From Thelephora terrestris (lineage: Eukaryota > Basidiomycota > Agaricomycetes > Thelephorales > Thelephoraceae): a DNA stretch of 64,000 nucleotides. Location: contig WIUZ02000009.1 of NCBI GenBank assembly GCA_015956445.1, forward strand, positions 1,178,001 to 1,242,000, in the 5' to 3' direction. A model generated the notes under the pieces. It searched no databases. It saw only the letters and a program-made list of their open reading frames with translations, and had not been told where the DNA came from. A program made the translations under genes and the position numbers. Positions 1,681 to 58,224 of the stretch are shown in pieces (position 1 is the stretch's first letter; the number at the start of each line of letters is the position of its first letter).

Positions 1681-4672
1681 CTAGAACAGAGTCTCCTCAT
1701 CCGCCCCCACCGCTTTCTCCTCCTTCACCCCCTTCAACGCCTCCAAACCCTTCTCCAACTCCATCATCCATCCCTCCTTCTCCTTCGTACTCTCCCCGAA
1801 ATCCTTACACCTCCTTATAACCCTCCTCACCTCTTCCATCTTGTAACCCATTACTTCTTCAAACTCGTTTAGATCCGCAGAATGTCTTGCCTTCGTCGCC
1901 CTCGTCCGATCCACCAGCGTTCGACGAGAAGGGTCGTCCAGGACGTGCCAGTGCCTCCAAGACGCCTTCAACCACCCCTTGACAGCATCCCGGTTCTCCG
2001 CCTCAACCAAATACGACAACACGTCCGGATCGTTCAACGTCTCCGTCAAATCGAAATCCAGAACCCTCAACTCCGCGATCAAGGCCAGCTGACCTTCAGG
2101 AATCTTCAGATCAGGCCTCCAAACTCTGGACCTCAACATCTTCAAAACGAACGTGAGATTCGCTTTCGTGTTCGTGTCGTACGCCCGATTCATGTCCACC
2201 ACGCTCTTCGCCCAGCTCGTCGTGAACCGCGCGATGAGTTGCGGCGAAGCGGGGAGGGGGTTAGGGCCAGATAACCAATTATCCGCAACGCAGTAAAAGA
2301 AGTGGATCGCCGCTTTGCGGAGGGGCAGAGGTCGGTCGTCCGATTCGATTAACCCGCAGATACCAGGGAGGAGCTCAACCAGAAGTTGTTTCGAGTGTTC
2401 AGGGATCAAAACCGGAGCCGGGTCCTTATCGACGTGATAAAACGCCGCAAAGGCGCACCTGACGGCGGTCTCATGGTCTCTCTCCAACTCAACCGCTTCC
2501 ACCTCTTCGATTCCAGCTTTTTCACCGGTGCCGCGACGAGTGTATTGTCTAGCGATATGATGAACCAAAAACTTGAGGACGTTCGTCGGGTCATCCAACG
2601 CAGGTTCGCAGCTTGTTCTCCCGAAAGCTAGTGTCAGGGCGTGACGAGCGGCTTCCCACTTGAGTGCTTCATGTTCGGTGCCGTACGAGGGAAGATCGAT
2701 GAGACGATGGAAAAGGGTGTAGGATCGAGAAGTGACAGTGGCGCTATCCATAGGCGGGAGAAGCTTGAATGGACCGAGTGCATCCCCGACGGGTAGGATC
2801 TCAAGCCTGTCAAAGAAATTGTTGACTGAAGTCTCGAAAGCGAGTCTGTGATGGACATCAGATCATGTATGCAACCCCCAATGATAAGAGCCTACCGTTT
2901 GTCGGTGACCAGGAGATCTTCCGCATGAATCGGAATGCCCAACGAAAGAGACAGCATCAAGATACAATCTGTCCCCATAGTCCAATTCCTCCATTCCAAC
3001 GTCTGAGCCACAAATCCATGGAGACTCACGTCCAACCGTCCGCCCTTCAACCAAACGAGGCACGACACAACATGAACCATCCAGGCCCGATGGTGGTAGG
3101 ACACCTTGGTTTCACTCCAGTCGATCTCACGGTGCTTGTCCATGATGTAATCCATCAGCCACAAGGTAGATTCGAGATCCCCGTCTTCCTTGTGCTGACC
3201 GTTAGCGAGCTGGACGTGGTGAACCCGGGCGCGTGAGACGAACGAATTATCGATGGTCCCGGTGACGCGCATCTGGGAGTAAACGTGGACGAAAGCCTTG
3301 GTCGTAGAAAACGCGTGGTCCCTTAACCTCGAGACTAAGCTGACCTTCTCATCCTCGAGATCGAAACAGTCTATAGCCTGGTCGTACAGATACGGGAGAG
3401 AAGGACTGTCCTTGATATCGCGATGCCATACGACCTCTGGAATGAAATTGGAGATGATCTGAGAGGCGGTTTGGCCTCGAGCGGTATCGATCATCCAGAC
3501 GACACACCCCGCGTCGACGTTATATGCCTCATGGTCCGTCTCCTTCTTGCTAAACAGCCTGACGGCCTTTCGTTGTGGCTGATCGACCAACGAGCGTCGT
3601 TTGTTCCTAAGCGGGTTAAACAATGGTAAGAGAAGTTTCAGGGTTGTGGTCCGATATAGCCGTGTCGTTCGGAGCCAGAGACGGAAAATTGCACGTCGGG
3701 TCCGAGCGATATAACGGTTGCGGGAATTATCAAGGCGGTAGATCGAACGAAAGATGTGGGAAGTGGGGGTTTGGAAAGGACAGTTATCCGCGATCGTCCC
3801 AGCAATCACGATAAAAACGTAGAACGCCAATCCGACGGAAGTGATCCCAATGACGACGGAAGCGACCGTCAAATTGATGGTCCAGAGGTACCTCGAGAGG
3901 GCGTACCCGAGGAGAAGCAAGGCAGATTGGAGCATGAGGGGGAGACTCTCCATCACGAGGTCGAACTTCCAGGAGACCATACCGCTGAGTTTACGCTGGC
4001 GGTTCCGGCTTTCGTCAATTTCGGAGCCCCTCACAGTCTTGCCGAAGCGGTTTAGCCACTGCTTGCCCAACATGGCGAGGAATGCAGCGAGGAGGGAAAT
4101 GCCAAGGCTGGCGTAGAGGACGGATTGACAGACGACGATGTCGTGGTCTGGGCCGTTCCAAACCTGAAGCGGTGGTACTTGACCGCCGAACGTGGTGTTA
4201 TCGAACTTGTAAATCAAAACGCGAAGGAGGGCGGCGGTCTCCTCGGTAGGGTCTGGTTGCAAGGCATTTTCGATGTTGAGAACGAACCCGGAAGTCACTG
4301 CTGAGAAAAGACCAGCCTGTGTCCCCATAAACGTCAGCTCGGTAGAGGCAGCCGATGCGGGGAACGTACAAAAATGAGCGTGGTATTCAGATCTTCTTCG
4401 TATTTCTTCTGAAAGTCCTTATCTGCGTGCTCGGCCTCCTGTTTGTATTTTGCGTAGAAATCGGCTCTGGGATTTGAACCCTTCTTTTCCGAGTCAGATG
4501 GCTTTGCGGTAAAGAATTTCTGGAGGGCAACAGTGAATGCCTGCTCCATACTGTAGTTCGGAAGAGATCATCGCTGTCGTCAGTACGGGTAAGGCGCGTT
4601 GGGTCATGCGAAGGGAACGAACTTTCGTTTTTGTTGCTCCGCCTGCTGGAACTTTTCAGCGAAGGTGCTCAT
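1681..4672 (-). CDS. DUF6535-type membrane protein (copy A)
   Basis: Basidiomycete-specific membrane protein family of unknown function. The start chosen is the ATG at 4672 (MSTFAEKF). Coding blocks follow on the minus strand at about 4672-4610, 4549-4350, 4328-2892 and about 2830-1681, separated by short introns. The family hallmark AGLFSAVTSGFV lies at the start of the third block, then the membrane segments around YASLGISLLAAFLAMLGKQW and the LWTINLTVASVVIGITSVG stretch. The C-terminal half (SYTLFHRLIDLP, then LKWEAARHALTLAF) is soluble and helical. It aligns block for block with the gene at 24588-27445, including a shared DDLLVTDKR / DDLLVSDKR exon end. The first intron boundary is approximate. 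Family assignment is firm, and function is unknown in the family. Confidence 0.8.
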
Positions 4673-24587: not shown

Positions 24588-27445
24588 ATGGCGGACGACA
24601 CGATGTAAGTGGCTCGTATACATCCCCCTGACGAGGGCTCCTTCCTGGCGTTTTCTCGGTGCTGACTTTGACTCTAACTTTCCAGCGTCGACAGTCCGGT
24701 TTCGATTAAGCCCCCAATCTCCCCGTGGTCCGGGACCAGCGGAACGACATACGGAAAATCAGCTATTTCAGAAGCACGAACGAGGTTCTACGAGGCCTTC
24801 CGGAAGGAGTCCGTCGACTTTGACAGGCAACTCAAATCTCATGACACCGAATACAACCTCATCCTCCTCGTCGTGCGTCCACTGATCAATGCGGATGGTC
24901 TTCGGATATGGCTGATTCCAGATCCTAGACCTCCTTCTGTGCGGCAAACCTCTCCGCCTTTGTCCAGCACAACAAAAACACATCGTTTACTCAAATTCTC
25001 ACCGGTGAGGCGAGATGACGTGGACGCTTTTCACCTCGTCTGACTTGTCCAGATCCTACCCCAGAACAGGCCCTTCTGTTCCACGCGCTTGTCATCTTTT
25101 TGTTCGTTGCATTCCTCGCTGTTTTGGCTAAACAGGCCTCAAAGCGATCCGCTCTGATAGAAATCCGTGACTCGAGTCTCAAGGAGGGTCGCTATCGGGC
25201 GCGGCGCGTGCCGAACGTCAACAAAAGCGTCGTTCTCGCTCTCGCAATCGAATGGCTCGTCTTGGTGGTCAATCTGGCGCTCGCCGGGACGGTGTTTTTG
25301 TTCTTGAAGAATATGTGGGCGATGTATTGTTCCCCGGATTCTCTCTCGGCTGCCACCGTCGCGTCGTGCATCGGCCTCATGGTCCTCGCGATCCCCGTTC
25401 CGGCATGGCTTACCATACGATCGACCGGCACTCTCGTTCCCGTGACAAGGTCGTTGATCAAGGACTTCGTTGACGCAAAGACAGGACGGAAACCACCGGT
25501 CCGACGCCGGAGTACGATACCTCCCAAACAGTTCACCGATCCCATACCTGCTCTCGTCCAGGACGAAGCTCCCGTACGCCGATTCTTGATCAGGGAAACT
25601 GAGCGAGAGGGGTATGAGACGGATTCTCAGTGCGTGTCTTGGATGTTCGCCAGAAACATCGACTCGGATGTTTCCAACGCCATCCTCGGCTTCATTCCAG
25701 AGATCGTTTGGCACTCCGGTATCCAAGATACGCCGCTGATTCAGGTTTACGATGTTCTACTCCAATGCTTCAGCCCGAGTACCGAGGAATCGAAACCCGT
25801 CCTCATCCCTCACATGCACGACAAGGCCTCCGACGCAGCCAAGGCTTTCATCCACCTTTTTGTCCAACGGCAATGTATCGGCGACGAAGATCAGGAGCTC
25901 ATCGAGCAGTTGAAGAAGAAGAGCGACACTCCGCTGAGTTGGCGTAGATCTGGGACCGACCAGGATCTTGACTCTATGCTTGGGTTGGTGGACAAGTTGC
26001 TCGAACACGACGTCAGTATCCCCTGGACCAAGTTCGTGTTATCCTTCAGCCATCATAGTTGGTTGGGCCACATCCTACTCTACCGGGCTTGGGACACTAC
26101 AAGAGACACCGGGAAGCTCACATCAGACGTCGCTGGATTCGTCGAATACACCATGTCCCTTGACCCCCCAGCTGCATCCTCGATTGAGACTGATTGTCTG
26201 TTGATGATTGGGCTCCTGGTCGGCATGCCCGTTCATACGGATGATTTATTGGTTAGCGATAAAAGGTCCGTCCTGGGAAACGCTGGTGGTGACGTGTGCT
26301 GACTCCCAGTCGACAGCGAGGAATTTGGGACTATCCTCAAACAGATGTTCGTCAAACTCGGGGAAACCTTTTCCAAGTATACCGAGGGTCAGAATCTCGA
26401 CTCGCAGATGGAGGCTCTGCGTTTGGTCACCCCCATGATCGGCAACCAGATCGCTCAACTGAGCTACGAGCTGTTCCACACCATTATTGCATCGAGTGTT
26501 CCTGAGGATATCAAGTGGGAAGCGGCTCGTCTTACGATGAACGGCGCGTACAACTGGGACAAGTACCTTCCTTGGGTTGAGGATCCGACGGACGTTTTGG
26601 CTTTCCTCGAGCATCATTTCGAGCTTCAGGCAAAGGGAGAAAACCACGACACTTCGATCACGAACGCTTTACGAGCCTTGGCTTACGCCTCTGGGAAGGA
26701 GACCATGGAGGCATTGAAGAAGTTCGATTGCACCACGTTGTCATATGTCAAGGGCATCTGTCGATCTTTCAAAGATGAGAAACCGTTCCAACTCCGGAAG
26801 GCCATCTTGTTTTACATCCCGTTGGTGGAGGGCCGATGGTTTGACCCTGCGGTTGAAATCCTAGACGAGGATGGGCGAAGAGAGTTTTGTCAGGATTGGG
26901 CATCCGGTGTGGATGGTATCGAACAGACGAAGGATGTTAAGAAGGCCGTCGCTTCTGTCCTGTTCGGGATGGCGAACTCTGCCATTTGGAGACCGCATAT
27001 CCCGCAGGACAAGTGGAAGCTCATGGAGTACTTCAATGAACTCCCTGACGAATCCCCGTCGAGGTTGAGATGTGAGGCGAACGAAGAGTTCGTCCCCGCG
27101 TTGAAGGCTATGGATAACAGAGGCGTAATGAAGCTGTGGCTGGCAATCCTCTGGAGGGCGTATGCCGATCTGAAGTCGGTCGTGCGGGATCAGCTTGTGG
27201 AGAACACCAGAGAGGTAATTGAGACGAGCCCGCACGACGTCGGGCTGTTCATGGCGGTCATGGAATCGGAGAAAACGGCGGTGGATACCGAGATGCTCGG
27301 GTATTCGAGGTGGTCCATCGATGAGAAGGCGATTAAGCTGAGGGAGAAGACGGATAAGCTCCAGCAAGCGAAGAAGAAATTGGAGGACGTCGTGGAGAGC
27401 GTCGTCGAGGCGAAAGCCAAGAAGTTGAACGTGGCTATCTTCTGA
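24588..27445 (+). CDS. DUF6535-type membrane protein (copy B)
   Basis: Paralogue of the gene at 1681-4672, on the opposite strand about 20 kb away. A 17-nt first exon (24588-24604, MADDTI) is followed by blocks at about 24686-24860, about 24930-25001, about 25062-26265 and about 26310-27445. The family hallmark appears as SFCAANLSAFVQHNKN, then a helix LLFHALVIFLFVAFLAVLAK. Two further membrane segments lie near VLALAIEWLVLVVNLALAG and ASCIGLMVLAIPVPAWL, and the rest is a long soluble helical tail rich in Glu/Lys near the end (LREKTDKLQQAKKKLEDVV, a likely coiled coil). The intron near 26266-26309 follows LVSDKR, the same place as in copy A. Role unknown in the family. Confidence 0.82.
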
Positions 27446-34146: not shown

Positions 34147-37100
34147 ATGGGATTGCGAAAGTTTTTCCGCAAAATAAAAACCCGTTATCGAGAACGAAAC
34201 AGAGCCAGGAGCGAGGCGGGTTCCATCAAGGAGCCAAGCACGGAAGTTGAACCCGTTTCGCCAGGCCCCACAGAGTCGGCACCAAACCTTCCCATCGGTG
34301 ACTCGACCCCACCGACTCCTGGGCCCTCGGCCTCTCGCATTCCGTATTTCAACGGTACGCAGCCATTACTCTCAAGAAGATCCGTCTAATCGCGCTTTTC
34401 CACGCGCCGCAGATTCCCCCTCCAATTTTCCTCAATTCCAGATTGATTCCTGCGAGAAGCAAGGCACGGTCGCACCACGTCTCGCCGATTCAGCACCAGA
34501 TCTGTGCGTTGGTGCCCCTACTCCTCTACAAACAGTCGAGCCCTCGGGCTCTCACGATCAGACCTCCAACGGTATGCGGCAATTTTCTTCCCATAACATC
34601 CGTCTAATCGTACTTCTTCGCGCCTCCCAGATCTCCCCTTCCCTCCCACTCCACTCCAGCCTGATTCAAGCGAAAAACAAGGCGCGCACACGGGACTCCC
34701 GGATCTCATAACAGAATCGCCGGCGGTAGATGCTGACAAGGACACCAAGAACTTCAAGTCCCTCGTGTATTCTGCAGCCAGGACAATCCTCCTTGGCGTC
34801 AGAGAGTCCGCAGATGCATTCGGTCCGCTCAAGTCCGTCGCCGGAGGTCTCTGTTTCATATTGGAGAATTACGAGGTACAGTCCTCCTCCTGCACTCGCT
34901 ATCCACAACACTTACAGCTGCACCAGCGAACGAAGGCAAACAAACAATCCATAGAATCGTTAGCACCCCGGGTCCAAGAAGTTTCTAGGTTGCTTTACGC
35001 GCCAGTTTCTCAAGATGATATCGACGAACAATCAAGGAGAGGTGTTCTGGAACGGTAAGTCCATACCCTCCGGTGTCAGATGCTGACTCTGACGTACGAA
35101 TCGCTAGCAAATTGCAAGCCGTTGATCGAGATCTAGAACTACTGAAGGAACAAGGAAAGGTTGAAGGTTTTTTCGCCAATGTCGACAACGCCGATAGAGT
35201 TCGCGGACTGGTTGAGGACATCCGTGATGCAATGATTCAATATCAGGTTTGTTTTGGCAATGTTCGCACTCCCCAGCACCTCTGATGTTTGCTTCAGACT
35301 TCGTTGCAGCAAGATCTCTACAACAAGAGTTGCCAGCTTATTGTAAGGCCCTCTTCCTTGCTTCTCATCCTCACATGTTGATCATTGGATAGGAATCCGT
35401 GGACCTCACCCTTCTCAATGGGATGTTTCACACTTCGGACGCTGGCTACGACAGCGGGAACAGGCAGGGATGCCTGAGAGGAACGAGGCAGGATGTACTC
35501 GGAGAGATTCAACGCTGGTTGATGGACGAGCAGGATAAACGTGTCTTCTGGCTGAACGGCCTGGCCGGAACCGGAAAGACCACTCTCACTCAAACATTTG
35601 CCGAAACTAGCTTTGCGGATGGCAGACTCGGGGCGAGCTTCTTCTGCTCGCGGGATTTTGCAGGCCGGAGTAATCTCCAAACAATCTTTCCGACTCTCGC
35701 CTTCCAGCTCGCCTACAAGTATCCCCTTTTCCGTGGGAAGTTGTTGCAGGCCTTGAAAGCAATCCCAGACATTGGAAGAGTGTCCCTCTGCTCACAGATG
35801 GAGAAACTCATCATTGGTCCATTCAATGCTTCCCCCATCCCAACCCTCATCATCATTGATGCTCTTGATGAGTGCAAGGACGAGGAACCTGCCTCTGCCA
35901 TCCTTTCCATCCTCTCCCGCTACACAGATCAGATACCCAATGTCAAATTCTTCATCACTGGCCGTCCCGAACCTCGAATCCGCTCTGGCTTCCGCCTCAA
36001 GTCACTCCAACCCATCACAGAAGTGTTCAAGCTGCATGAGGTTAAACAGTCATCTGTTGATGCGGATATCAATCTGTATCTCAGGACTGAGTTAGCCAAG
36101 GTTGCCAAGGCACGAAGTGACTGTAACCTCCCAGACACATGGCCAACTTCATCTGATATTGATGCCCTCTGCAAGAAGGCTGCTGGTCTCTTCATCTATG
36201 CTTCCACGGTTATAAAATTTGTTACCTCCTCCCGGTACCACCTTCCTGCTGAAAGGCTCACTCTCATCACCTCACTCCCTCAAGACACCACTCATGAAGG
36301 AACATTAGGGATTGACAAACTCTACACCCAGGTCCTACAACAAGCCTTCCATGATGTAGATTCAAGTGACCAGGCATTATGTTCCTCTATCAAGACCATC
36401 CTTGGGACTGTGGTGCTGGTTTTCAACCCCCTCACAGCAAGGGCACTCTCAGATCTCCTCAAAATCCCCCAAATCCTCACTCCCCTCCATTCCCTCCATT
36501 CCCTCCTCCTTGCACCAGACTCAAGCAACACAGAAGTTCCAATCCGCCCCTTCCATAAGTCATTTCCTGACTTCCTCACAGATACCAAAAGGTGTGGGGA
36601 CCAATGGTTCTTTGTGGAACCAAAGATTTGCCATGCAGAAATCTTGCTTTCATGCCTGAAGTTGATGAAAGAAAAGTTGAAGAGGAACATATGTGGCTTG
36701 GATGACTTTGTTGTTTTGAGTGAGGTCAAGGACCTTTCTACTCGAAAAAGAGATAACATAGGTGATGCCTTGGAATATGCATGCCAGTTTTGGACAAAGC
36801 ACCTTCTAGGGACCATGGGAAGCAGTTGCCATATCACAGAAATAGGGAAGGCAATGGATGAATTCTCTACAACAAGCTTGTTGGATTGGATTGAAGTCCT
36901 CATCCTTACAGGAAGCCTTGACACTGGAGTGTATGCCATGAATGATGTTGAGCAATGGTATGCTTCGGTAAGTGCTCTTTAGGATGTTTACTTAGACCCA
37001 TACTAATGAATATCCAGGCAGGAGTTTTGTGCATGTGGGCCAATGACACACAACGCTTCCTGTTGGAGCACTTTGATGCGGTCCATCACTCTCCTTCTCA

Positions 37101-38856
37101 GATATATCACTCTGCCCTCCCATTTGTCCCCTCCTCGTCATGGCTTCACCAGCACTACCACAAAGAGGTCTTGAATGAAGTCAAGGTAGTAAAAGGGCTT
37201 CCGGTTGAATGGGGAGGATGTTCCCGAACAGTTTCGCTTGCTAGTTCACCACTTGGAATCTCATGCTGGAACAACTCTATTGCAGCTGGTCTTTCTGGTG
37301 GAGACATTATTGTTCTGGATGCAATTACTGGCAGCCAAGCAGCTGTTCTTTCTGAACACACCGATTGGGTTAGATCTGTCATCTTCTCATCAGATGGGGT
37401 GTTACTTGTATCTGGAAGTGATGATAAGACTGTGAAGGTCTGGGATGTGCAGACTGGTGGAGTTGTTAAGACCCTTCATGGCCACAAGAATTTTGTCATC
37501 TCTGTTTCCATCTCAGCGGATTCTACCATGATTGTCTCAGGGGACTACAAGGGGATGATTTTCTTGTGGAATATTGAGACCTGGCAGGGCCATTGTGTCA
37601 TTAAGCAACAGAAGGAAATATCCTATGTTACATTTTCCCCCACAAACCCCCAATGCCTCATATCTGTATCTGATGACAAAGTTTGGCAATGGAGTACCAA
37701 TGGTCAACAGACTGCACAAACATTTGATGGTTCTTGCTTTGCTCTCTCCCCAGATGGCACTCAGTGTGTTTTGTGCAATGGAAATGTAGTCACAATCCAG
37801 AGCTCTGATACCAAAACCACTTTGGCTAAATTTCATTTTCCAAAGGATTCTGCCAAAAGCTGCTGTTTCTCCCCTGATGGCAGGCTTGTTGCAGTTGGCA
37901 CCTACTATGGGGTCTATGTTTGGGACACCACCAGCCCAAATTCTCACCCCATGGAGCAATTTCATCTACCAGGTGACCATTATACAATGGCATTCTCTGC
38001 ACCCTCTGTTCTTGTCTCAGCATCTTGGAACGGCTCAATCAGACTCTGGCAGATTGGTGGTTCTGTAACAGACCCAGTCATCTCTGAGCAACAGTCCACT
38101 TCACTCACCTCACCTTTAATCTACTCTATCACTCTACAGCCAAGAGATGGAATTGTTATCTCAAGTGATGTAGATGGTGTGGTAAAGACCTGGGACATTT
38201 CCACTGGCCTTTGCAAAGCATCCTTCCAGACCCCAGCTGGAGAAAACCTAAGAGATGTCCAACTAATAGATGGGAAGTTGATCACAGCTTGGAGGGTTGA
38301 TGGTGAAATTCACATCTGGGCAACTGAGAGAGCTGAATTTCTCCACAAGTTTGAGGTCGAGGAATTAGAATACTGCCACCACCCGAAGATATCAGCAGAT
38401 GGGTCCAAGCTTTTTGTCCTGAGAGATGGTGGACCCATTCGAGCCTGGGATATGTGGACAGGAGAGCCCAAGGGTACAACTGAGTCAAATGTGGAGCCAG
38501 TAGGGCTAGTTTCAAGGAGAGTTCTCTATTCGGATGGTCCAAAAATCTGGGCTCCACTCATGGACTCCTCCATCCAGGGGTGGGACTTTGGAATCTCAGG
38601 CTCCTCCCCTACTCCATTGCCTGACACACCTTCAGAAAGATGTCGTCTTGGATTTATCAATGGACCTCCCAGGATCAAGGATAACCTCACTGGAAAAGTA
38701 GTTTTTCAAGTGTCTGGGAGGTATGATAACCCTTGGGTAGCACAGTGGGATGGTCAGTATCTAGTTGCTGGCTATGACACTGGGGAGGTTTTGATTTTTG
38801 ATTTCTGTCACATTTACCCTCAGCAGCAACCTGGAGTATACTGGATGATTACCTAA
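34147..38856 (+). CDS. NACHT-WD40 STAND NTPase (fungal NLR-like protein)
   Basis: Signal-transducing NTPase of the fungal NLR-like class, whose members are linked to non-self recognition and programmed cell death. Eight exons (34147-34354, 34413-34571, 34631-34875, 34918-35054, 35108-35246, 35298-35342, 35393-36967, 37018-38856) sum to 4,347 nt, or 1,448 residues. The N-terminus is basic (MGLRKFFRKIKTRYRER), then a Pro/Ser linker. A helical domain spans about 215-311 (LLGVRESADAFGPLKSVAGG). The NACHT domain has Walker A GLAGTGKTT near residue 367 and Walker B LIIIDALDEC near 463, then FFITGRPEPRI as sensor-like segment. C-terminal WD40 repeats begin near residue 925 (SEHTDWVRSVIFSSDG, VSGSDDKTVKVWDV). 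Exons 2 and 3 look like a tandem duplication. From about 35.7 kb onward CpG becomes rare. The N-terminal effector type is not recognised. Confidence 0.9.
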
Positions 38857-45296: not shown

Positions 45297-45303
45297 GGTA
45301 TTG
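45297..45303. repeat. 7-bp target-site duplication, left (ggtattg)
   Basis: Identical to 55310-55316. These two copies bracket the KDZ element exactly. One copy belongs to the interrupted codons SGIG of the Tnp2 gene. Confidence 0.9.
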
Positions 45304-46048
45304 CAGTAGTCCTTATGAAAATTATAAAGATCTTATGAGATGATCTTATAAGTCTTGATAAAATAACCCATAGGGATTATAATGCCCGTTTGGGCATAAA
45401 GTGTTCGCCCTGGAAATTATAATCAACCCCAGGGGACCGGGTTAGCCCCAAATCCGGTAATTTCCAAATATGGTAATCCTTCCAAATATGGTAATTGCCA
45501 AATATGGTAATTTCCAAAAAAGGTAATGTTGCCAGATATGTTTTTTCCTCAGATATGTTTTTTTTTCCCAGATATGTTTTTTTCCCCAGATATGTTTTTT
45601 TTTCGAAATATGTTTTTTTTCCCCAGATATGTTTTTTTTTAAATATCTTTTTTTTCCCTATATGTTTCTTTTTCTAGATATGTTTTTTTTTTTTCGAAAC
45701 ATGGTGTTTTTCGAATGTTTCTTTCTTCAGATATGTTTTTTTTTTTCGAAATATGTTTTTTTTTCGAAACATGTTCTTTGAATGTTTCTTGGATATGTTT
45801 TTTTCCTCAAGATATGTTTTTTTCGGAATATGTTTTTTTCGAATGTTTCTTTTCTCAGATATGTTTTTCTCTCAAGATATGTTTTTTTTGTATATAATGT
45901 AGGTAAAAGGGGTAAAAACACAGTCGGCACACACCTACCTTCAAATCACACACATTTCAAGATCTGCCCAAGCTCACATAACCACACTCACTCATGTTCA
46001 AAAAACATCACAAAAACATCAGTCTATTCGGGTGGGACAGGTAAAAAA
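45304..46048 (+). repeat. KDZ left terminal inverted repeat
   Basis: About 745 bp, inverted copy of 54547-55309. The outer 200 bases hold a palindrome-rich stretch (atgcccgtttgggcat) and three copies of ccaaatatggtaat (about 45470-45520). 45533-45895 is a degenerate tandem array of about 18-22-bp units built on agatatgtttttttc and cgaaatatgttttttt. Confidence 0.9.
45533..45895 (+). repeat. tandem subterminal array (agatatgttttttt units)
   Basis: Roughly 18 degenerate units of 18-22 bp, each with a t(a)tatgtttttt core, alternating cagatatg, cgaaatatg and gaatgtttc variants. The mirror array lies at about 54715-55080. Such arrays are often transposase binding sites. Confidence 0.8.
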
Positions 46049-46113
46049 AACTCAGTAAAAGTAGTAGTACCAGAAAGAGACTTGTAAAGCAGGGCAGAAA
46101 CATTGCTCTAGGG

Positions 46114-48286
46114 TTAATTGCGCCTCCTTCGTTTTGCTGGGGGGCCAATCTTTGTTACTGCAGGGAGTGTCATGGGTGTCGTGGGTGGAGAAGAGTCAGG
46201 GGAATTGGTAGCATCAGCAGAGAGGAAAGAAATGAGGTTGTTAACTACCCATGCAACATCTGAGATTGCGTCATCAACCTTTGAAGTCTCTGATGGATCT
46301 CGTGCATGGATCCACCATCCAAGACTCACAATGATGAGGAAAAGTCCATCCTTCCCTCCTTTATGGAGGGAACCCCAACCCCGCCCAGCTGCATCCTCCT
46401 GCACGAATGGCCAGCTTTGGGTGTCCCGCCACTTCGGCTGAATAGCCGACCACCACAGCACCCACATGTCCTCGAAGTCCTTGGCAGACAAGATCTCTGG
46501 TATGTTCATTGGGGAAGTGGGCGACCAGACTTGAACCACTGGGCAAGCTCATCTGGGCGTGGCGCAGTTGGTAACTTGCATGAGCCCTGCTACACTGTTA
46601 GCAGTAGCCGACATTCAATATGTCTATTTACTTACAGGTACGGAAGACGAAAGGCTTTCAAAAATGACATATTCCGCTAGAAGCTCCTCCCACTTAGGCC
46701 CTCCAGGAACACCAGTCAAGTAGTTCTCAGCTTTGTGAACATAGCCGTTGTGCTCGGGACCCAACTCCCATGACGGCTCGTGTGTGGGCGTCCAGGTCAA
46801 TTGAGCTCGCGAGGTGATCTTCTCAGACAACGCGTGACAAGAGGGAGAGGGAGGCAGTAAAACCTGGGTCGTCTCGGGGTCTGTCTGAGTTTGTGCGAGA
46901 CTGGTCACGGTCAGTTGCGTGGGAGCAGGAGTGATCACCAACACCTGCGTACGAATGGGGGTAACCGCTGGTGTGGTCGTGGGAATGGGGATAACTGCTG
47001 GGGTGGTCGTGGGAATGGGGGTTGTCGCTGGGGTGGTCATGGGAACAGGGGTAGTCGCCGGCGCCTGCATGGGAGAGGGTGTGGTTGGCGTGGGGGCCAG
47101 GACAATATTCGCTTGTGTCTGGACAGGAGGAGGTGCCAAAGTCTGGGTGAGGGAAGAGGGAGAGGTGAGAGATGGCCGTCCAACAGGTCGTTGCAAGCGG
47201 AGAAGTTCATCATGACCTAAACCGCGTGATCAGAAAACAGAACACGGATTCTTCGGAATGACTTACTATAAGTTGCGTTCAACCATTCCCAATACTTATT
47301 CTTCAATGTTTCCCACAGCGGACCCAGATACTGGGGAAACGTCTGGCCTGTCAGGAGAGTTTCTCCAGCGCCGACACTGCAAGCGATGGTGAGAAACGTC
47401 CGACATGAAAACCTGTCTAGACACGTACTGGAAGATTTGGATACCACCTGTGCCACTTGGGTTTGGTCCGCCAAACATGACAAACGGTTTGAAGTTCATG
47501 ACGTCTTTCATCTCGTCACAGATGCCCTCGAGTGTTGCTGGGAGAGCCGCGACCTGCCTGTGAGATTTAAGCATCTAATAACTCAACGAGGAAGGGACGG
47601 GACGGGACTCACTCGGTGACGTACTGCCTCTCTAGGTCGAGATCTGACTCGGAGTCGTTAACCCTCATCGCAACCCAGGGACGTTCATGAAGATCCTGAT
47701 CCTTTTGATACCGGTCGGAAATGTACTTCTCAATCTCAGCCACCTCCTCTTCTGACACAGAGCCAATAATCTCCTTGAGTACGGCTTGCTGGAATGTAAC
47801 GAGCAGCATTCCGGGATTGTGCGCTCCTGGGAAGAGGTGTTTGTACTTGTCACAGGTGAGTTTGTCGCCGGAAATGTAACGGCCATGTGCCGCCCGCAGC
47901 TCTGTGTAGAGTTCGGACCCCTCCGTATAATGCATACAGGAGTACGCTTGAGCACGCGTGAGCGGAGCAGGCCTTCGTGAAGACTTGATGGTGAGGATGG
48001 AGGAAACGACGGGTTTGGGTGGCGGTGGGTCGGCTCCTTTGCCATGGTTGTAGAACCACTGCTGGAGTCTCTGCAAATAAGTTAGTGGCTTGAGCGGGGA
48101 GCGCGAAGGGAGAACACTTACATCACGCAACTTCGGGCGGTCAGCTTCGGGGACAGTGAATTCACCCAGGAACTTGGCCACAAGACCCTGCAAAAAGTCA
48201 TCCCCCCTCTTCCTTCGCCTTCCGAGCCAGTTAGGTATTTGAGAAATCAGCCAGGCATGCTGCTCTGGGGTAGTCCAGGCCTTCAT
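46114..48286 (-). CDS. KDZ-borne accessory protein of unknown function
   Basis: Family not recognised by name; proteins like this occur beside CxC2/KDZ transposases in basidiomycetes, from memory. Start is ATG 48286 (MKAWTTPEQHAWLISQIPNWL). Exons are 48286-48122, 48070-47613, then blocks near 47555-47430, 47380-47270, 47220-46640 and about 46540-46114. The first four junctions keep frame; the last intron boundary is uncertain because the obvious acceptors do not match phase. Features: conserved Trp-rich motifs (W..L...PNWL, LRDRLQQWFYNHG, WETLKNKYWEWLNATYS), a Thr/Pro/Val repeat block made of TTPAVTPIPT-like units (46900-47090), then WWSAIQPKWRDTQSWPF and GLFLIIVSLGWWIHA, ending in the basic PPAKRRRRN, a likely nuclear signal. 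It may be a regulator or co-factor of transposition; that is inference. Confidence 0.7.
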
Positions 48287-48289
48287 GGG

Positions 48290-48643
48290 GGATGTGAGAC
48301 GTGTCGCACGAGAGATCAAGAGACGGGCGACGTGTGACGCGAGAGAACGAGAGACGTGGAGGGAAAGAGATGAGATGTAGAAGGTGAGAGACAAGATGTA
48401 GAGGGAGAGAGATGAGACGTAGAGGGAGAGAGACGAAGTGTGCAGCACGAGAGATGAGATCTTGAGAGACGAGGACGAGCGACAAGAAGCGCGCACAGCA
48501 CGAGAGACAGAGACACAGAGCACAAGGGATGGGATGGAGGCAGCCACCATATGCACAAATAAACACAATCAATGATTGACACGTTGATGGACTGGGCAAA
48601 ATGAGTCCGAGGCACACGGTATCCCTCTTCGCTTCTCGTCGCT
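48290..48643. repeat. purine-rich repetitive divergent promoter
   Basis: Between the two divergent KDZ genes. 48330-48500 is a degenerate tandem repeat of about 20-bp units such as gagagagatgagacgtagag. An open frame runs through it on the minus strand, but it gives only a repeated Ser/Leu pattern, so I read it as untranslated. Confidence 0.6.
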
Positions 48644-49801
48644 ATGTCCCGAAGGCGGGGTGATGAGCTGGCAGCCGTGCAGCGAGATTTCAATCTCTCC
48701 GAAAGTAAGTCTCTCTCGTTTGCTCAATTGTCCTGCCCATTCTCACCTAAATCAGTTGCAGACTCCCTGTGCGAGATTGCTACCCAGCTTGAAGAACGAG
48801 AGTCAGCCGAGGACGTTGCAAACCGTCTCAACGTCCTCGTTGAGCGCTACCCAAGCAGTGATACATCGTAAGTTTCTCTCGTTCGCTCCACAATTATGTG
48901 TTCTCACCGGTGCGATTCTGGATCCAACTCAAGATTTTACCTTGAGGATTGCCCAACCACTCCAAGAACACCCCGGGATGGCAACCGTTACCCCTATCGT
49001 CATGGACCCTCAGAGACTCAACCCCAGCACCACCACTATGGACACTCGGAGATTCAGCCCCAGCACCACCATCACGGACGCTCGGAGCCTCAACGTCAAC
49101 CCCAGTACTATCGTCCTAGTCGCTCGGAGACTCAACCTCGGTACCATCGTTCTAACTACGCCGACCACCAGCGCCAATCGGCTCAGCTCCATTCGGCAGT
49201 TCCTGTTCCCTCTGATGTCCATCTAGGCATCGGACTCGAGTTCAGCCATACCCCCAATCGCCCTGAGCCCCGCTTGAGCCATTCCGTGCATTATGAGTGT
49301 AACGCCCCATCAGATTACCCACTCTCTCCCTCACCTTCCCCTCGAATTCCTCAGCGCTGGCAGATATTACGATCTGCATCCGATCACCAAGAACCAGGGA
49401 TCAACGCCACCGGCCCTGGCCACCGGTTGCCATCAGAATGTGCCCCTTCCCCCCAAAGGCGTGTCGCTGATAACGGGGACATCTACGACTTGGATGTGTC
49501 CTTGGTTAAATGTGAAATCCCGAACCACGTGCCAACAATTCATTGTTCCCCTCTCGGTGATGGGGGGTCCCAAGGCCGATGGTACTACGTCTCCCGTGGA
49601 AGGAAAGTCGGTATATTTAATGAATGGTACGTATGTTTATTGAGTTGATACTCAATTTGACAAATCTCTCTTAGGGGAGAAGTCCAAGCGTCAGTCAACG
49701 GTGTAAGTGGTGGGCACCAACAACGCGCCAAGAGTGAAGCCCTCGCCTACACCAAATTCAAGTCAGCGCTCTTGCGAGGGGAAGTAATAATAAGAAATTA
49801 G
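48644..49801 (+). CDS. KDZ-borne protein with RNase H1 N-terminal (Cauli_VI-type) domain
   Basis: Four exons (48644-48704, 48756-48867, 48934-49626, 49675-49801), all junctions in phase, give 330 residues from MSRRRGDELAAVQRD. The C-terminal 60 residues match the RNase H1 N-terminal fold, which binds RNA/DNA hybrid and double-stranded RNA and also occurs in caulimovirus viroplasmin. Visible pattern: RWYYVSRGRKVGIFNEW, then GEVQASVNGVSGG, then AKSEALAYTKFKSALL. No RNase H catalytic domain follows. The N-terminal 55 residues form a short helical segment (VADSLCEIATQLEERESAED). Residues about 65-120 are a His/Gln/Tyr-rich repeat (SETQPQHHHYGHSEIQPQHH). It lies between the other two element genes, sharing a divergent promoter with the accessory gene. 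Probably binds hybrid or dsRNA of the element; the role is inferred. Confidence 0.82.
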
Positions 49802-50742
49802 ACGATGTAGTCATTCTGCCTTGCTTACCAAATTTTCTTGTGTTGTTCCGTGTTCGTTGACTCTGTGCTTTTGCCCAAATATATCCCATGTTGCTCTCGT
49901 TATCGACTTGGTTTGCGTTCGTGTGAGGTGATTGCAGCTCCTGCTCTTGCGCCCAGTGCACAAACAGTCTGAGTACACCGGGTTACAGAAATTTCCCCCC
50001 AAGGCGTGCATCCGTAATCGCGATATTGCGGCCGTTTTGCTTAAACGCTATTGGGCAATACATCTTGACCACTATCCGTAAGCTATTAAATATTTATATT
50101 ATGACACTCTGAGGGAGACGGAGAGAGCCCAGGTGCTCTAGTCTATTGCCAGAGCCTGGAGCCCATCGGTTGATTGGTGTTCAAGTCGATCGCATGAATA
50201 GTGGAACAGGCCAGGTAAGCTGCGCCAACCAACTAGTGGTGTTTGCGCACTGCACCTCAACCACAGATGATTTTGGCCCAGTTTTTTGGATAGTTAAATA
50301 ATACATACCTGCATTCATGTCCTGATAAAAATATATATTGTTCGTTCAACACGGCGCCGAGTTTCCATCGTTTTTGTTTTTGATCACGATCATTGATTTC
50401 TGCTAAGTCCAACTTTGAAATTTTTTTGAAGTGAGTGTCCACCAAAAATGTGAATTAGTGGACACCGATAGTCACGCCTCTCACTCAAAATATTTCTGCA
50501 TCGGCCTTGCACGTTAATTGTGCACTCAAAACCCCATCTATTCAATCTAGGTGTAAATATTTAATATATATAGTCCTCGGCTCAACGGCCGTGTTTGAAG
50601 CGATAACACCGGTCTTCGCCAATTGTCTATACCACAGTTTCATATTTCTGTGATCTAACTTCGAGCAAAAATATCTGTATACAGACCTTGTATCAGCATC
50701 GCCTAGGTCAGAGTACTTGGTGCACGAGGACAGGCTGCATCC
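49802..50742. other. spacer inside the KDZ element
   Basis: About 940 bases between the RNase H1-N gene and the transposase. A/T-rich, with only short ORFs. It must hold the 3' end of one gene and the promoter of the next; no clear box is seen. Confidence 0.4.
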
Positions 50743-53700
50743 ATGTGCACACAAAGATCGGTTAAAATGGCACAGACTGAAATCGATCACCACTTGCTCC
50801 TCGCCATCATGCCGAAATCACAACGTCGCTCAGCAAAACGAAAGAGGCACCAGCCTGAAGAAAAACCTTCCTCCGCATCCCTAGAAGTCATTGCCGTCGC
50901 CCGGGAAGGTAGCCGTGTACGCCAGAATCGTGTCATTGAGGGGACAAGCTTTGACCCTCGCGCTTCAATCTTCTCCCCCGCCGACCACGACGCGTTCTCC
51001 ATTCTCGAATCGCAATCAGACCCCTTCCAGCTCCCCGAAGGCTTAAGTGCATCTCAGAAACCGCTCAAGGATTCAGGCCCGGATAACCCAAGTCGCTCTG
51101 TATCGGTCAGTCTCTTCCGCAGTTGCCACGTCATCACGTGCTGACCAGAACTTCAGTCAAAGATCCAAGAATGGATCCCACACCGGGTGGAATTCCTTCA
51201 TGAACTCCTTCGCCTAGAAGCTCCCCTCCAACGCTCCCCTCGTTCAGGAGCTCCTTCTCAACAGTCCCCTCCTCATGAGCAAACCTGTGTCGAATGTACA
51301 ACAAACGCAAACCACCGCTGTCTCAGTTGTTTCTCAGGGAAAGTCATGTGCAAGGGTTGCCTGGCTTCATGCCATGCGAACGTGCCACTCCACAAGATTC
51401 AGGTTTGTCGTCCAACATTCATCACAAGTTATCTGAAGCTGACACGGTCTAGTCATGGAATGGAAAGTTTTTCGACGATACTACGCTCACCGCTGCTGGC
51501 CTTATTGTCCACCTTGGGCATCACGCTGGTGACACGTGTCCTACCACCTCCCCTCGCCGCGACCTCATGGTCTTCGACTTATCCGGCGTTCATCGTCTGG
51601 TCGTTCGTTACTGCCGCTGCGCAGATGCCCCTCCCAAGTGCATTCAACTCCTCCGTGCACGCTGGTTTCCAGCAACGATTGATCGACCAGCAACGGTGTT
51701 CGCCTTTGACATCCTTGACTTCTTCTGCAAGCTTCAAAATCAGAACAAGTGCAACCCGTATGACTTCTATCATGCCATCATCCAGCGTTCGGATGCTGCT
51801 GGGTTGAATCCTGAAATTGTAAGCTCTCTACACACTCGCTCCCACACATGGTCTCATCACTCGTTATCGACAGCATTGCTACAATGAGATAACGCTCGTG
51901 TTCCGCCTTTGGAGCCACCTCCAGCTCCTCAAGCGGAGTGGTGCTGTGCATCACTCTCCTGCTGTCGAGTCGCTGCCCGCTGGAAGTGCGGCAATTTCCT
52001 GCCCTGCATGTCCCCAACCAGGAAAGAACATGATCAATCTGCCTGATTCTGAGTTGTACGAATGATCCTGTGCATTGCATCGCTGTTGTACTCACCAATC
52101 TCTGTTGTTGTAAGATGGAAAAATACTTTGTTTTTGGGCATCGACGCTTGCTTTAAATTGAAACTTAAAGATCGTGGGTTCAATGACCCAGACCTTTCCA
52201 CCGGATTGGCTTATATGGTAAATGAAGAGTTATACCAAGCGCATCTGGGCGCGAACACGGATGTTACCGAACCAGTGAGTTTCACCTATCGTTCATCCTA
52301 TCAATTGGTCGTTGATGAAAGTGATAAGATCAGCACTTGTGGCCCGGATCTCCACGCCGTCAACCAGGCGTATACAAAGCTCTCTCAGGGGTATGCCGTT
52401 ACGGGCGTTGCTGCCGTTTCGTGCCGTCATGCATTTGTCCGCCCGAAAGGAGTCGTTGATCTTCAGAAGGGCGAAAAGTAGGGCGTTACTATTCCTTTCT
52501 TGTTCATCAACTAACTATCGCTTTCAGGTACATCAATATTGATTACGCCGTTGCATCTACTCTTACAGACGACATCAATGCTGGGATCACGGACGTTGTC
52601 GTCACCTACGACATTGGTTGTCAGTGGTCGAAAAACCTTGTTCATCGTCTCTCGAACTGTCCCTCCATGCCCCCCCTTAACATCCAGTCTCTCCACTCAT
52701 TCCGCGTCGCTGTTCCCAAGTTCCACATCATTGGCCACGGTGCATCGTGTCAAGCAAAATTCAATCTCGCTTACATGGATGGTGTTGGGATGACTCACGG
52801 TGAGACTGTTGAGACGATCTGGTCTCATTCCACATCTCTCGCAACTTGGTCTCGAGAGAACGGACCCGCCGCCCGCCATCTGATCCTGGATGATCATTGG
52901 GCTGGGTGGAATTGGCGAAAGGTTGTTGGTCTTCGTAAGTCTCTTGCCCATATACCGCATGCAAATCAACTGACACTTGGCACCTGTCCAGGCACCCAGT
53001 TGAAGGACGCACTTGAAAGAGCTTCCAATTGGGCTCAAGTCCAGCGCAAGGCTGCCGACTCGATGACCGTTGCTTGGCCTGAGTTTGTTCCCGATTGGAG
53101 GAAGATGCTGCTTGCTTACAAGCAGGACCGCTCCAAGCCAAACCCGTTCGCTGAACCTGATCCCAGTATGTTTGCACGCACACATATGTAGGGGGTTTCG
53201 CAGCTGATTGATATTAATAGGTGACGCATTGGATAGGTTGAAGGACCAGCTCTCAAGGGAAGATTTAGAAACACAGAGGCTGGGTATGGACTTCCCTCAT
53301 GAGATGTCACCCGCGGTATTCCTTGAACACGCTTTGAATATTGAGGCAGCTCAGTAAGTCCCCCATATCATGGTTGTGATGCCTACCGACCTTTGGTCCT
53401 TAGACGCAGGTTCAAGGCGAAAGACCACGGTGGTATTCGAGGTTCCACCACTCCTCTCCTGGAACACCGCCGCTCTCTCTCTAAGGATATTGCCAACCTT
53501 CGCATCCCTCAACGTCTCTACATGCCGGATTCTATGTCCCTCGTTGACGCGGACCCCATCCTCCTTGCAGACCACCCTGAAAACATCGAACTGTGGCTCC
53601 CTTCTGCTCTTCCTACTGCCTCACATAACACTCAGCATGTTAACTCCCTTCTTCAACTCGAATACCGACTACGCTACGCCCAGGCCGCAGATGCGCTGCA

Positions 53701-54511
53701 TGGCATCCGACATTCTCGCCGACTTATCCGGACCGTCCTGACAAAGATGCAATCACACATCACGAACACCCAACGGACCACCACTAGGTCTGATAGCCTG
53801 TTCAACAAGGCCAAGACTAAGCAGGCTCGAGCAGTCGCGACATACCGGGCCGCACGCAAAGTGATTGCCAACTTGGCCCCAAACGAGGAGTTTGGCCCCT
53901 GGAAGAAGACATTGTTGGAGCTCACCGACGCCGATATCCGTGGACCTGGACGTGAGGAGTCTGAGCCGTCTGAATCTCGTTTCGTCCAATCCTGGATCTG
54001 GGTGACGGGATCCAAAGTTTCAACTTCCTTTGAGGATCCTGATCTCCACGCTACTCTTCGGGTTGAGTGGTGCAAGGCGCAGGAAAGGGCAAAGCGATAC
54101 GAGGAGGAGGTGGAACTTGTGGTTGAGGAGATGCGGCGGACATTGGCAACCTTTGAATGGAACGCGGGAGAGTGGGAGACGCGTGCTATTTCCCCCCCAT
54201 CCATCACTGATCCTCCACTTGATGCTACCACAGCCTTGGGCATTGCTGCCTATGCATACGAGCAGGCTAACATCCAGCGGAGAATGATCAACACCTTTGT
54301 CCGCACCTGGTATCCAACTCTCGAAGAACTTTCCCTCGGTTTCTCATGGCTTAGTGCATATCCTCGCCCGTCTTCGCCCCGAACCAAACGCTGTCGCCTT
54401 CCTTCGAATGTCCAACTCTACTACCCCACGCTGCAAGTTGATGCCTTGGATGATGACGCTGATGTTGATGATGACATGTCTTTTTGTGTGGGTCCATCCA
54501 ATGATCATTAA
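50743..54511 (+). CDS. KDZ transposase with CxC2-type cysteine cluster
   Basis: Transposase of the element. Nine exons (50743-51105, 51157-51402, 51453-51818, 51875-52056, 52115-52477, 52528-52934, 52992-53165, 53221-53353, 53404-54511) sum to 3,342 nt, or 1,113 residues, all in phase. Other possible starts are ATG 50767 and 50809 (MPKSQRRSAKRKRH, basic). A cysteine cluster of the CxC2 type follows (CVECTTNANHRCLSC, KVMCKGCLASCH). A second Cys pair lies in ISCPACPQPGKNM. The RNase H-like core shows three acidic candidates: LFLGIDACFKL, VVTYDIGCQWSKN, and GETVETIWSHS. Between the first two, HAVNQAYTKLSQGYAVTGV is typical of the family. The C-terminus is helical and ends in an acidic DALDDDADVDDDMS. 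No disabling change seen. The length and intact frame suggest it could still be active. Confidence 0.9.
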
Positions 54512-54546
54512 CATCCGACATTATCATTACCACTAGTCTTCTATGA

Positions 54547-55309
54547 TTTTTTACCTGTCCCACCCGAATAGACTGATGTTTTTGTGATGTTTTTTGAACA
54601 TGAGTGAGTGTGGTTATGTGAGCTTGGGCAGATCTTGAAGTGTGTGTGATATGAAGGTAGGTGCGTGCCGACTGTGTTTTTACCCCTTTTACCTACATTA
54701 TATACAAAAAAAACATATCTTGAGAGAAAAACATATCTGAGAAAAGAAACATTCGAAAAAAACATATTCCGAAAAAAACATATCTTGAGGAAAAAAACAT
54801 ATCCAAGAAACATTCAAAGAACATGTTTCGAAAAAAAAACATATTTCGAAAAAAAAAAAAACATATCTGAAGAAAGAAACATTCGAAAAACACCATGTTT
54901 CGAAAAAAAAAAAACATATCTAGAAAAAGAAACATATAGGGAAAAAAAAGATATTAAAAAAAAAACATATCTGGGGAAAAAAAACATATTTCGAAAAAAA
55001 ACATATCTGGGGAAAAAAACATATCTGGGGAAAAAAACATGTCTGGGAAAAAAAACATATCTGAGGAAAAAACATATCTGGCAACATTACCTTTTTTGGA
55101 AATTACCATATTTGGCAATTACCATATTTGGAAGGATTACCATATTTGGAAATTACCAGATTTGGGGCTAACCCGGTCCCCTGGGGTTGATTATAATTTC
55201 CAGGGCGAACACTTTATGCCCAAACGGGCATTATAATCCCTATGGGTTATTTTATCAAGACTTATAAGATCATCTCATAAGATCTTTATAATTTTCATAA
55301 GGACTACTG
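54547..55309 (-). repeat. KDZ right terminal inverted repeat
   Basis: About 763 bp, inverted copy of 45304-46048. The extra length is mostly in homopolymer A runs of the tandem array. A few substitutions distinguish the two, for example in the stretch near 54650-54660. Confidence 0.9.
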
Positions 55310-55316
55310 GGTATTG
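55310..55316. repeat. 7-bp target-site duplication, right (ggtattg)
   Basis: Matches 45297-45303. Directly followed by gccccgagatc, where the Tnp2 reading frame resumes. Confidence 0.9.
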
Positions 55317-56527: not shown

Positions 56528-56587
56528 AGTAGCAGAGGATGAGAGGAGGTAGTACTGGTGTTTGGTGGGAGTGGAAAAGAGACGATG

Positions 56588-56965
56588 AGGGAAACGATCA
56601 TTAATCCCCCTGACTTAAATACATCCTGACTCAAGGAAAGCCAGAAAGGGAAAACAAAAACCCATTATCCATTAACGTCCTCATTAGGGTAAACGAACCC
56701 TCAACCCCAATCGAGATCCCATCAATTCAGAGAAATCCCCACCGATCATGGGAAATCCCCACCACGCTTCTATTGCTGCCATGGGTCCAGAGAAATCCCC
56801 ATCGATCACGAGAAATCCCCATCACGCTTCTATTGCTACCACGAAACACGAGAAATCCCTGAATGCTTCCATTGACCCGCACCCCTATTGTTCCCGTATG
56901 AGTAATTACTATCGGTCGTCCTAAGTCCCCTCATTCTGACTCATCTACCCTACCCTAAACTACGC
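56588..56965 (+). repeat. direct repeat A in divergent promoter
   Basis: About 380 bp matching 57829-58224. Both start ggaa(a)cgatcattaatcc and end ccctaaa.tacgc. The repeat contains a 57-60-bp minisatellite at 56728-56878, units beginning agagaaatcccc and containing gagaaatcccc a second time. Confidence 0.75.
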
Positions 56966-57026
56966 ACAGACCATGTTGACTCTTGTTTGACTCGTTGTAG
57001 AATAATGACTCCTGTAGAGGATTGGG

Positions 57027-57033
57027 TATATAA
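57027..57033 (+). promoter_or_regulatory. TATA box (TATATAA)
   Basis: About 150 bases upstream of ATG 57180, followed by a pyrimidine-rich leader (ctccttcttttcccc). Typical for a fungal core promoter. Confidence 0.6.
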
Positions 57034-57109
57034 GGAAGAGCGTTCGCTCCTTCTTTTCCCCATTCTCAATCTCTTCTGTACCTCTCTACCCACAACTCGA
57101 ATATAAAAA

Positions 57110-57161
57110 GTAAGCTGAGGAATTCTCCTCACGACTTACCTTTTCTAACCCATCTCAGCAG
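57110..57161 (+). other. probable 5'-UTR intron
   Basis: Donor gtaagc at 57110, branch-like ctaac at 57145, acceptor cagcag (end 57158 or 57161), 19-22 bases before the ATG. Confidence 0.5.
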
Positions 57162-57179
57162 GAATCCTCCTGCTAGTGT

Positions 57180-57803
57180 ATGTTCAGCGCTCCCAATCCT
57201 TTCCCCTCTACCAGTCCAGTCCAACGACCAGTCGTTCCTGACGCCAGGAGATCTATCTGGGAGTATAAACTCATCAGAAGTCTTCAAGTAAACCGAACCG
57301 CCGGTTTACTCACCCATTTTCCTTACTACCGACCCTTTGCAGCTCTCGACGCCGGAGTCACAACTCCCCCATTTCTCCTAGGAGCAGATCATCAATTCCT
57401 TTGGAATTCAGATCTCACTGAAAGTGTCCTTGCGACCGTCTACTTCAGTATCAGCCCGGCCTTTTATTTTCCTTCTCCACGGATCCATCTTACCACTAAT
57501 ATCCACACCCATTCCCCCGCTATCATTGTCCTTTGGTGGGAAGTCCCAACTGAATTACCTTATTCGGTTATAGAATACCTCGTCAACTTCGAACGTCTTA
57601 GCGACCAAGACTTCGAACCCTTTGTGCAGCAACTCAATCAGTTCTGCCAGGACTACCACTCATCCGTTCACCCTTATCAGACAGAGTCACCTCTCTCTCT
57701 GGATATTCCTCCTCTCCTCATCTCCACGCCCGGAACCCCCTTCAAAACCAGACCCGACACTCCTCACCCTTCCGCTAATCCTCTAGCGCTCCACGAACAG
57801 TAA
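57180..57803 (+). CDS. orphan protein of unknown function
   Basis: Intact single-exon frame of 207 codons starting MFSAPNPFPSTSP, with TATA box and probable leader intron upstream. No known family. The N-terminal third has SIWEYKLIRSLQVNR and FPYYRPFAALDAG. The core IIVLWWEVPTELPYSVIEYL followed by FVQQLNQFCQDY resembles in pattern the minus-strand proteins at 62445-62768 and 60826-61113. The C-terminus is Pro/Thr rich. It lies between the two copies of a 390-bp repeat, so gene plus repeat may have been copied as a unit. Confidence 0.5.
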   Translation: MFSAPNPFPSTSPVQRPVVPDARRSIWEYKLIRSLQVNRTAGLLTHFPYYRPFAALDAGVTTPPFLLGADHQFLWNSDLTESVLATVYFSISPAFYFPSPRIHLTTNIHTHSPAIIVLWWEVPTELPYSVIEYLVNFERLSDQDFEPFVQQLNQFCQDYHSSVHPYQTESPLSLDIPPLLISTPGTPFKTRPDTPHPSANPLALHEQ

Positions 57804-57828
57804 GCAGGCCTACAACCCTGACAGATGG

Positions 57829-58224
57829 AGGGAACGATCATTAATCCCCCTGACTTAAATACATCCTGACTCAACAGAATCCCAAAAGGGGAAAACAATA
57901 ACTATTTTCCATTAAAGTCCCAATTAGGATAAACGAACCCTCAACCCCAATCGCGATCCCATCAAAACCTGAGAAATCCCCATCGATCAGGAGAAATCCC
58001 CGCCATACTTCTACTACTTCCGAAATCCAGAGAAATCCCCGTCGATCAGAAGAAATCCCCGCCATACTTCTACTACTTCCGTAATCCAGAGAAATCCCCG
58101 TCGATCAGAAGAAATCCCCTAGTACTTCCATCAGTCGCTCCTCCTATTGTTTTCGTATTAGTCATTACCATTCGTCGTCCTAAGTCCCCTTTCCCCGACT
58201 CATTCAACCTACCCTAAAGTACGC
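57829..58224 (+). repeat. direct repeat B after the orphan gene
   Basis: Copy of 56588-56965 with its own minisatellite of about three units at 57969-58137 (gagaaatccccgtcgatcag type). It ends exactly where the TGTCGG block begins. Confidence 0.75.

Follow-up and report, generated by a model that had tools for sequence, protein, structure and literature searches.

The analyzed stretch of Thelephora terrestris DNA (the window; 64,000 nucleotides of contig WIUZ02000009.1 in assembly GCA_015956445.1, positions 1,178,001 to 1,242,000) contains a complete DNA transposon of 10,006 bp at 45304-55309, with the 7-bp target duplication GGTATTG on both flanks. Its inverted repeats align with 741 matches, 10 mismatches, and 25 gap columns, and its termini read CAGTAG...CTACTG, that is, they form CA..TG ends. 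Inside the element, a gene for a protein with an RNase H1 N-terminal domain (RNase H1N) lies upstream of a KDZ transposase gene on the same strand. A further gene, denoted gene A, is transcribed divergently. The features are as follows.

45297-45303: left target site duplication GGTATTG, from the sequence
45304-46053, plus strand: left terminal inverted repeat of about 750 bp, starting CAGTAG; inner border approximate
45448-45888: left subterminal array, an 18-bp unit repeated about 20 times and a 16-bp unit repeated about 6 times
46114-48286, minus strand: gene A, divergently transcribed companion with several exons, one at 47609-48286 from the ATG at 48286; exon structure in outline
48644-48704, plus strand: RNase H1N gene, exon 1, from sequence reading, with the ATG at 48644
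48756-48867, plus strand: RNase H1N gene, exon 2, from sequence reading
48934-49626, plus strand: RNase H1N gene, exon 3, a linker rich in His, Gln, Ser, and Pro that contains 36-bp repeats, followed by the first half of the domain from about 49577
49675-49801, plus strand: RNase H1N gene, exon 4, rest of the domain, followed by the C-terminal extension and the stop codon, which ends at 49801
50767-54511, plus strand: KDZ transposase gene with a CxC2 cluster (51453-51887 frame) and a KDZ core (52125-52912), from Pfam
54547-55309, minus strand: right terminal inverted repeat, ending CTACTG; inner border approximate
54707-55165: right subterminal arrays, units as on the left
55310-55316: right target site duplication GGTATTG, from the sequence

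The transposase matches the Pfam families PF18758 (KDZ; E-values 1.7e-35 and 5.1e-17) and PF18803 (CxC2; 8.2e-34). A stop-free spliced model of it can be built; this model omits part of the KDZ exon and demonstrates openness only. Gene A has a Pro/Thr-rich middle, and the two pieces of it that were scanned gave no Pfam match. The RNase H1N gene is thus part of a full transposon with inverted repeats, the GGTATTG duplication, and a KDZ transposase, in agreement with the initial annotation, which had described it as carried by a DNA transposon. Just to the right of the element, at 56584-58224, a repeat built of 59-60 bp units is present in two incomplete copies, separated by about 1.24 kb.

The RNase H1N gene was modeled by eye from the sequence as four exons encoding 330 amino acids, with GT-AG introns of 51, 66, and 48 nt; its start and stop codons fall exactly at the borders 48644 and 49801 that had been proposed for it. 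The protein consists of a short N-terminal part, a low-complexity linker, and a C-terminal RNase H1N domain. Residues 274-311 match Pfam PF01693 (Cauli_VI, Ribonuclease H1 N-terminal domain) with E-value 1.2e-6 and 29.1 bits, exceeding the curated cut-off of 21, and the assignment to this domain therefore stands. Cauli_VI is the sole Pfam family found in the protein at E <= 1; because that scan gave no second family, no RNase H nuclease domain is seen, as had also been claimed. Compared with known structures of the RNase H1 domain, the window protein alone yields weak matches (1qhk, E 0.005; 3bsu, 0.03; 6vrd, 0.06), and a nine-row profile including host RNase H1 and relatives matches the same structures with E-values from 6e-12 to 4e-10. 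In one alignment (A2), which includes the host sequence, each of the nine members has a Cauli_VI match at E <= 1.

A survey of KDZ elements for linked homologs, proposed together with the initial annotation, was strongly positive in this one genome. In the 40.6-Mb assembly, where the window lies on contig C60, 125 matches to KDZ were merged into 59 loci. Domain loci were searched for with the Pfam profile and with protein queries from the window and from four other loci (L068, L081, L003, and L023); in addition, a spliced-peptide profile was run over 25 of the 46 KDZ loci then lacking a match, while the other 21 of the 59 were covered by the genome-wide searches alone. The count reached 41 domain loci, of which 33 are KDZ-linked and 8 are unlinked, these genome-search counts being lower bounds. 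Thus, 33 of the 59 KDZ loci have the domain 2.2-10.8 kb upstream (median 3.9 kb) and in the same orientation as the transposase, no two of these domain loci sharing a KDZ; one of the 33 also lies less than 12 kb from a second, oppositely oriented KDZ. No copy of the domain was detected at the remaining 26. The unlinked loci include host RNase H1 (C23:2284435) and L012. Not counted among the domain loci were C56:728475 and C10:188111, which match the linker, C8:385693, and rows whose match is confined to the N-terminal part of the query.

Some of the queries had themselves been taken from KDZ-linked copies, and a fairer measure is therefore the Pfam profile by itself, which at E <= 1 finds 12 domain loci, 8 of them KDZ-linked. 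For the correct orientation and a distance of at most 11 kb, a limit set after inspection of the data, the binomial probability is 8e-15 for 8 of 12, and 3e-7 for 4 of 8 when near-identical families are counted once. As single exons these eight linked loci score 16.4-19 bits, below the cut-off, which single exons exceed only at host RNase H1 and L012, both unlinked. Later, nine of ten further spliced peptides, one of them the host's, scored above it, the L078 type having no match. Over the 3.6 kb scanned at each of the 25 loci, the spliced-peptide profile gave 5 positives at 20-62 bits and 20 negatives at 7.2 bits or less; 14 control pieces of the window in the same scan reached at most 8.4 bits. 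For 5 of the 20 negatives (L071, L076, L082, L084, and L087) genome-wide protein searches placed the domain farther upstream.

Two other observations concern the make-up of individual domain genes. At L012 (G000:C56:884133-887213) the RNase H1N domain is closely followed by a PIF1-like helicase (PF05970, 54.7 bits), possibly in a fused gene; none of the listed KDZ loci is on this contig. In the subfamily of L016, L017, and L081 the gene appears to have two tandem RNase H1N-like domains, with the W43 position altered in the second. Relatives in viral contigs were searched for with part of the transposase, and none of the three pattern matches was confirmed.

A tree built from KDZ cores of this genome, 30 of the 59, contains two deep groups (support 100/100) of 7 and 23 rows. 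The domain accompanies 13 of the 23 rows of one group and was detected in 0 of the 7 rows of the other; 0 of 7 against 33 of the 52 remaining loci corresponds to p = 0.002, with the count inflated by near copies. The tree leaves out 29 loci, of which 26 share at least 34% identity with the window's transposase and three are unplaced; two rows of the lineage without a detected domain match this transposase at 28%. Presence of the domain requires at least five changes on the 30-core tree; therefore it does not mark a single clade, and the domain was gained or lost repeatedly. Domain identity to the window's copy falls to 25% among KDZ-linked subfamilies, and in 10 copies it correlates with transposase identity to the window's transposase (Spearman 0.78, p 0.008, kinship being ignored). 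Relatives of gene A, encoded on the opposite strand, lie no more than about 12 kb from 8 further KDZ loci (E < 1e-6) and from another 3 (E 0.03-0.05); the gene A matches on C25, C6, and C45 are not near any listed KDZ. The locus with the closest transposase, C3:1047678 (80% identical), has gene A and no RNase H1N match in the genome-wide searches, and C45:1291569 (L079; transposase 51% identical) has no RNase H1N domain in the 3.6 kb examined. From an evidence base of one genome and one paper, it is nearly certain that one lineage of KDZ (Kyakuja-type) DNA transposons in this fungus inherits the RNase H1N gene as a recurrent component; this forms the structural part of our explanation.

The origin of the gene is indicated by its introns. 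A phase-2 intron occupies the same codon of the domain in the window copy, in host RNase H1, and in 12 copies from other loci, 10 of them KDZ-linked and two (L022 and L023) unlinked; the codon is TG^G in the window, the host, and 9 of the 12, the junctions of the compared copies having been chosen by best profile score. From these gene models we strongly infer that a cellular RNase H1-type gene gave rise to the domain gene, which now stands without the nuclease. Because the intron position is common to the copies and host RNase H1, a cellular source is preferred over a caulimovirus, and we know of no reason to expect this phase-2 intron in caulimovirus genes. The parallel with caulimoviruses drawn in the initial annotation holds at the level of the Pfam family, Cauli_VI, to which P6/TAV (viroplasmin) also belongs; as a source of the gene, a caulimovirus is the less likely candidate.

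Purifying selection on the domain gene is suggested by the codon changes in two pairs of copies, L067/L068 (dS 1.30) and L068/L078 (dS 0.77), with dN/dS of 0.40 and 0.42 over 87-91 amino acids. Near-identical pairs have too few changes for this estimate (L018/L020 differ by two amino-acid changes and no silent change), and other distant pairs are saturated.

The N-terminal domain of RNase H1 binds RNA:RNA and RNA:DNA duplexes (PMC12458480, in excerpt), and in the human domain the substitutions W43A or KK59/60AA compromise hybrid binding (PMC10639055, in excerpt). The window copy retains Y29, R33, G34, R35, K36, G38, and W43, and has Q/R at positions 59/60. In the 12 aligned non-host copies, window included, W43 is kept in 9, among them the window's, and lost in L078, L081, and L016; the glycines are kept in most, and positions 59/60 are K-K in none and R-K in one. 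Net charge over the part aligned to the human domain varies from -3 to +4 across the 12 copies; the core is acidic in L009 and in L067, L068, and L078, three copies of one subfamily, and the full domain of the window copy is basic, with a charge of +5. Most copies end with a C-terminal extension of the form ~[FY]xxxLxxGx[VI]. In sum, the element copies resemble the hybrid-binding domain of RNase H1 in Pfam family, in W43 and the glycines (most copies), and in the host intron position; unlike RNase H1, they show no nuclease domain, do not keep K59/K60, and mostly have the extension, which host RNase H1 lacks. As K59/K60 are not kept and core charge is variable, the domain is more conserved than its known binding surface. 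This leaves three live readings of its function: anti-silencing, a transposition cofactor, and a protein adaptor.

Other re-uses of the domain have been described. The caulimovirus-like domain of ANKLE2 is comparable: it has the RNase H1N fold without the nuclease and without the contact residues, and it did not bind nucleic acid; unlike the window protein, ANKLE2 is an animal protein with LEM and ankyrin domains (PMC13179284, in excerpt). The RNase H1N domain is also re-used in bacterial RNase LS proteins (PMC3710099, in excerpt).

Among known transposons, Kyakuja elements are similar to the window element in the KDZ transposase, the 7-bp target duplication, and the CA..TG termini. The two Laccaria Kyakuja families lack terminal inverted repeats and have TET/JBP as cargo; the window element, in contrast, has RNase H1N and gene A between inverted repeats about 750 bp long. 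TET/JBP, carried by Kyakuja and other elements, has been proposed to be anti-silencing (all from the available portion of PMC12730594). In the T. terrestris genome no match to the TET/JBP profile PF12851 was found at E <= 0.01, the search controls being silent as well.

A second comparison is provided by Pleurotus ostreatus, where the long copy of the helitron helpo1.3 has about 10.7 kb of extra DNA with a satellite, inverted repeats flanking capD and capF, and three genes: capD, capE with Cauli_VI, and capF, which is predicted to be a nuclease of RNase H fold and was termed a putative transposase. These were published as helitron-captured genes (PMC4289320, in excerpt). Judging by analogy from the published description, capD-capE-capF may instead be a KDZ element of the same build that was inserted into the helitron and misread, so that the reported gene capture may be a misread transposon.

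We tentatively propose, at odds somewhat below even, that the inherited KDZ component binds duplexes and shields the element from RNA silencing. The protein, with its N-terminal part, linker, and RNase H1N domain, would act in trans on nucleic acid duplexes produced at the element; the candidates are dsRNA and RNA:DNA hybrids formed from the transposon sequence and the long repeats at its ends. By binding such duplexes it would mask the nucleic acid of the element from the host RNA-silencing machinery, a role that would parallel that of TET/JBP in other KDZ elements, thought to undo DNA methylation. Piwi domain matches above the cut-off are present on contigs C34, C6, C9, and C12; because the host has these Argonaute-like genes, the targeted pathway probably exists. 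Together with TET/JBP in related elements and the basic charge and W43 of the window copy, they incline us slightly towards anti-silencing. Taken by itself, the anti-silencing step is possible, though well short of an even chance. The fullest version, in which a transposon lineage has acquired its own RNA-silencing suppressor from the duplex-gripping domain of RNase H1, dropped the nuclease, and kept the domain with its transposase, is doubtful.

Of two close competitors, the first, somewhat unlikely, is that the protein is a transposition cofactor, binding the transposase or the inverted-repeat arrays and assisting or regulating cutting and joining. It would account for the same-strand association with the transposase, the occurrence in only one of the two deep groups of transposases, and the correlated divergence; moreover, the subterminal arrays of about 20 units may need a reader. 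Second transposon-encoded proteins are common in DNA transposons, although we know of no case of the RNase H1N fold in transposition. A Myb/SANT protein is mentioned for Nuwa elements (PMC12730594, available portion). However, the 26 KDZ loci without a detectable copy speak against an accessory of this kind, and gene A could serve as the cofactor instead. The second competitor, a protein adaptor, is favored by the missing K59/K60 pair, a charge that varies and is acidic in some copies, the C-terminal extension of most copies not shown by host RNase H1, and the precedent of ANKLE2 (PMC13179284, in excerpt), whereas retention of W43 and the glycines in most copies and the basic window copy speak against it; on balance we consider an adaptor unlikely.

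Two further explanations were weighed. DNA transposons and helitrons are known to capture genes, and the absence of copies from 26 of the 59 KDZ loci would suit a piece of a host gene that was picked up accidentally and carried along. Such a passenger should hardly recur in several diverged subfamilies with fixed strand and side and with dN/dS of about 0.4 in two pairs, and we regard it as very improbable. That the genes are chance neighbors, or the domain an annotation artifact, could be suspected from the mere 29 bits of the window protein; the linkage count contradicts this, as do the element bounded by its target duplication, the matches of all nine A2 members to Cauli_VI, and the gap between the control pieces and the five new positives, so that its probability is negligible.

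In the literature searched, no description of an RNase H1N gene in KDZ elements was found; the 2014 KDZ paper of Iyer and colleagues was outside this scope and could contain one. The term "RNase H" is absent from PMC12730594, and the available portion of PMC12810828 names only transposase domains for Cryptococcus KDZ1-3. Within the literature covered, only the Pleurotus helitron paper (PMC4289320, in excerpt) ties the domain to a transposon. TET/JBP is the sole extra KDZ gene discussed in the literature searched, and KDZ elements are abundant in this fungus. The recurrent RNase H1-derived partner is a concrete candidate for the handling of RNA-based control by a DNA transposon; if the proposal is true, the silencing suppressor would correspond, at the RNA level, to the TET/JBP enzymes of other KDZ elements.

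Elsewhere in the window, at 35393-38853 on the plus strand, NACHT/NPHP3_N lies in one open frame and WD40 repeats in the next, perhaps forming one NACHT-WD40 gene, which we take to be of the kind known from fungal incompatibility. DUF6535 is matched twice, at 2895-4418 on the minus strand with 109 bits and at 25019-26299 on the plus strand with 21.2 bits, the latter under the cut-off of 23.9.
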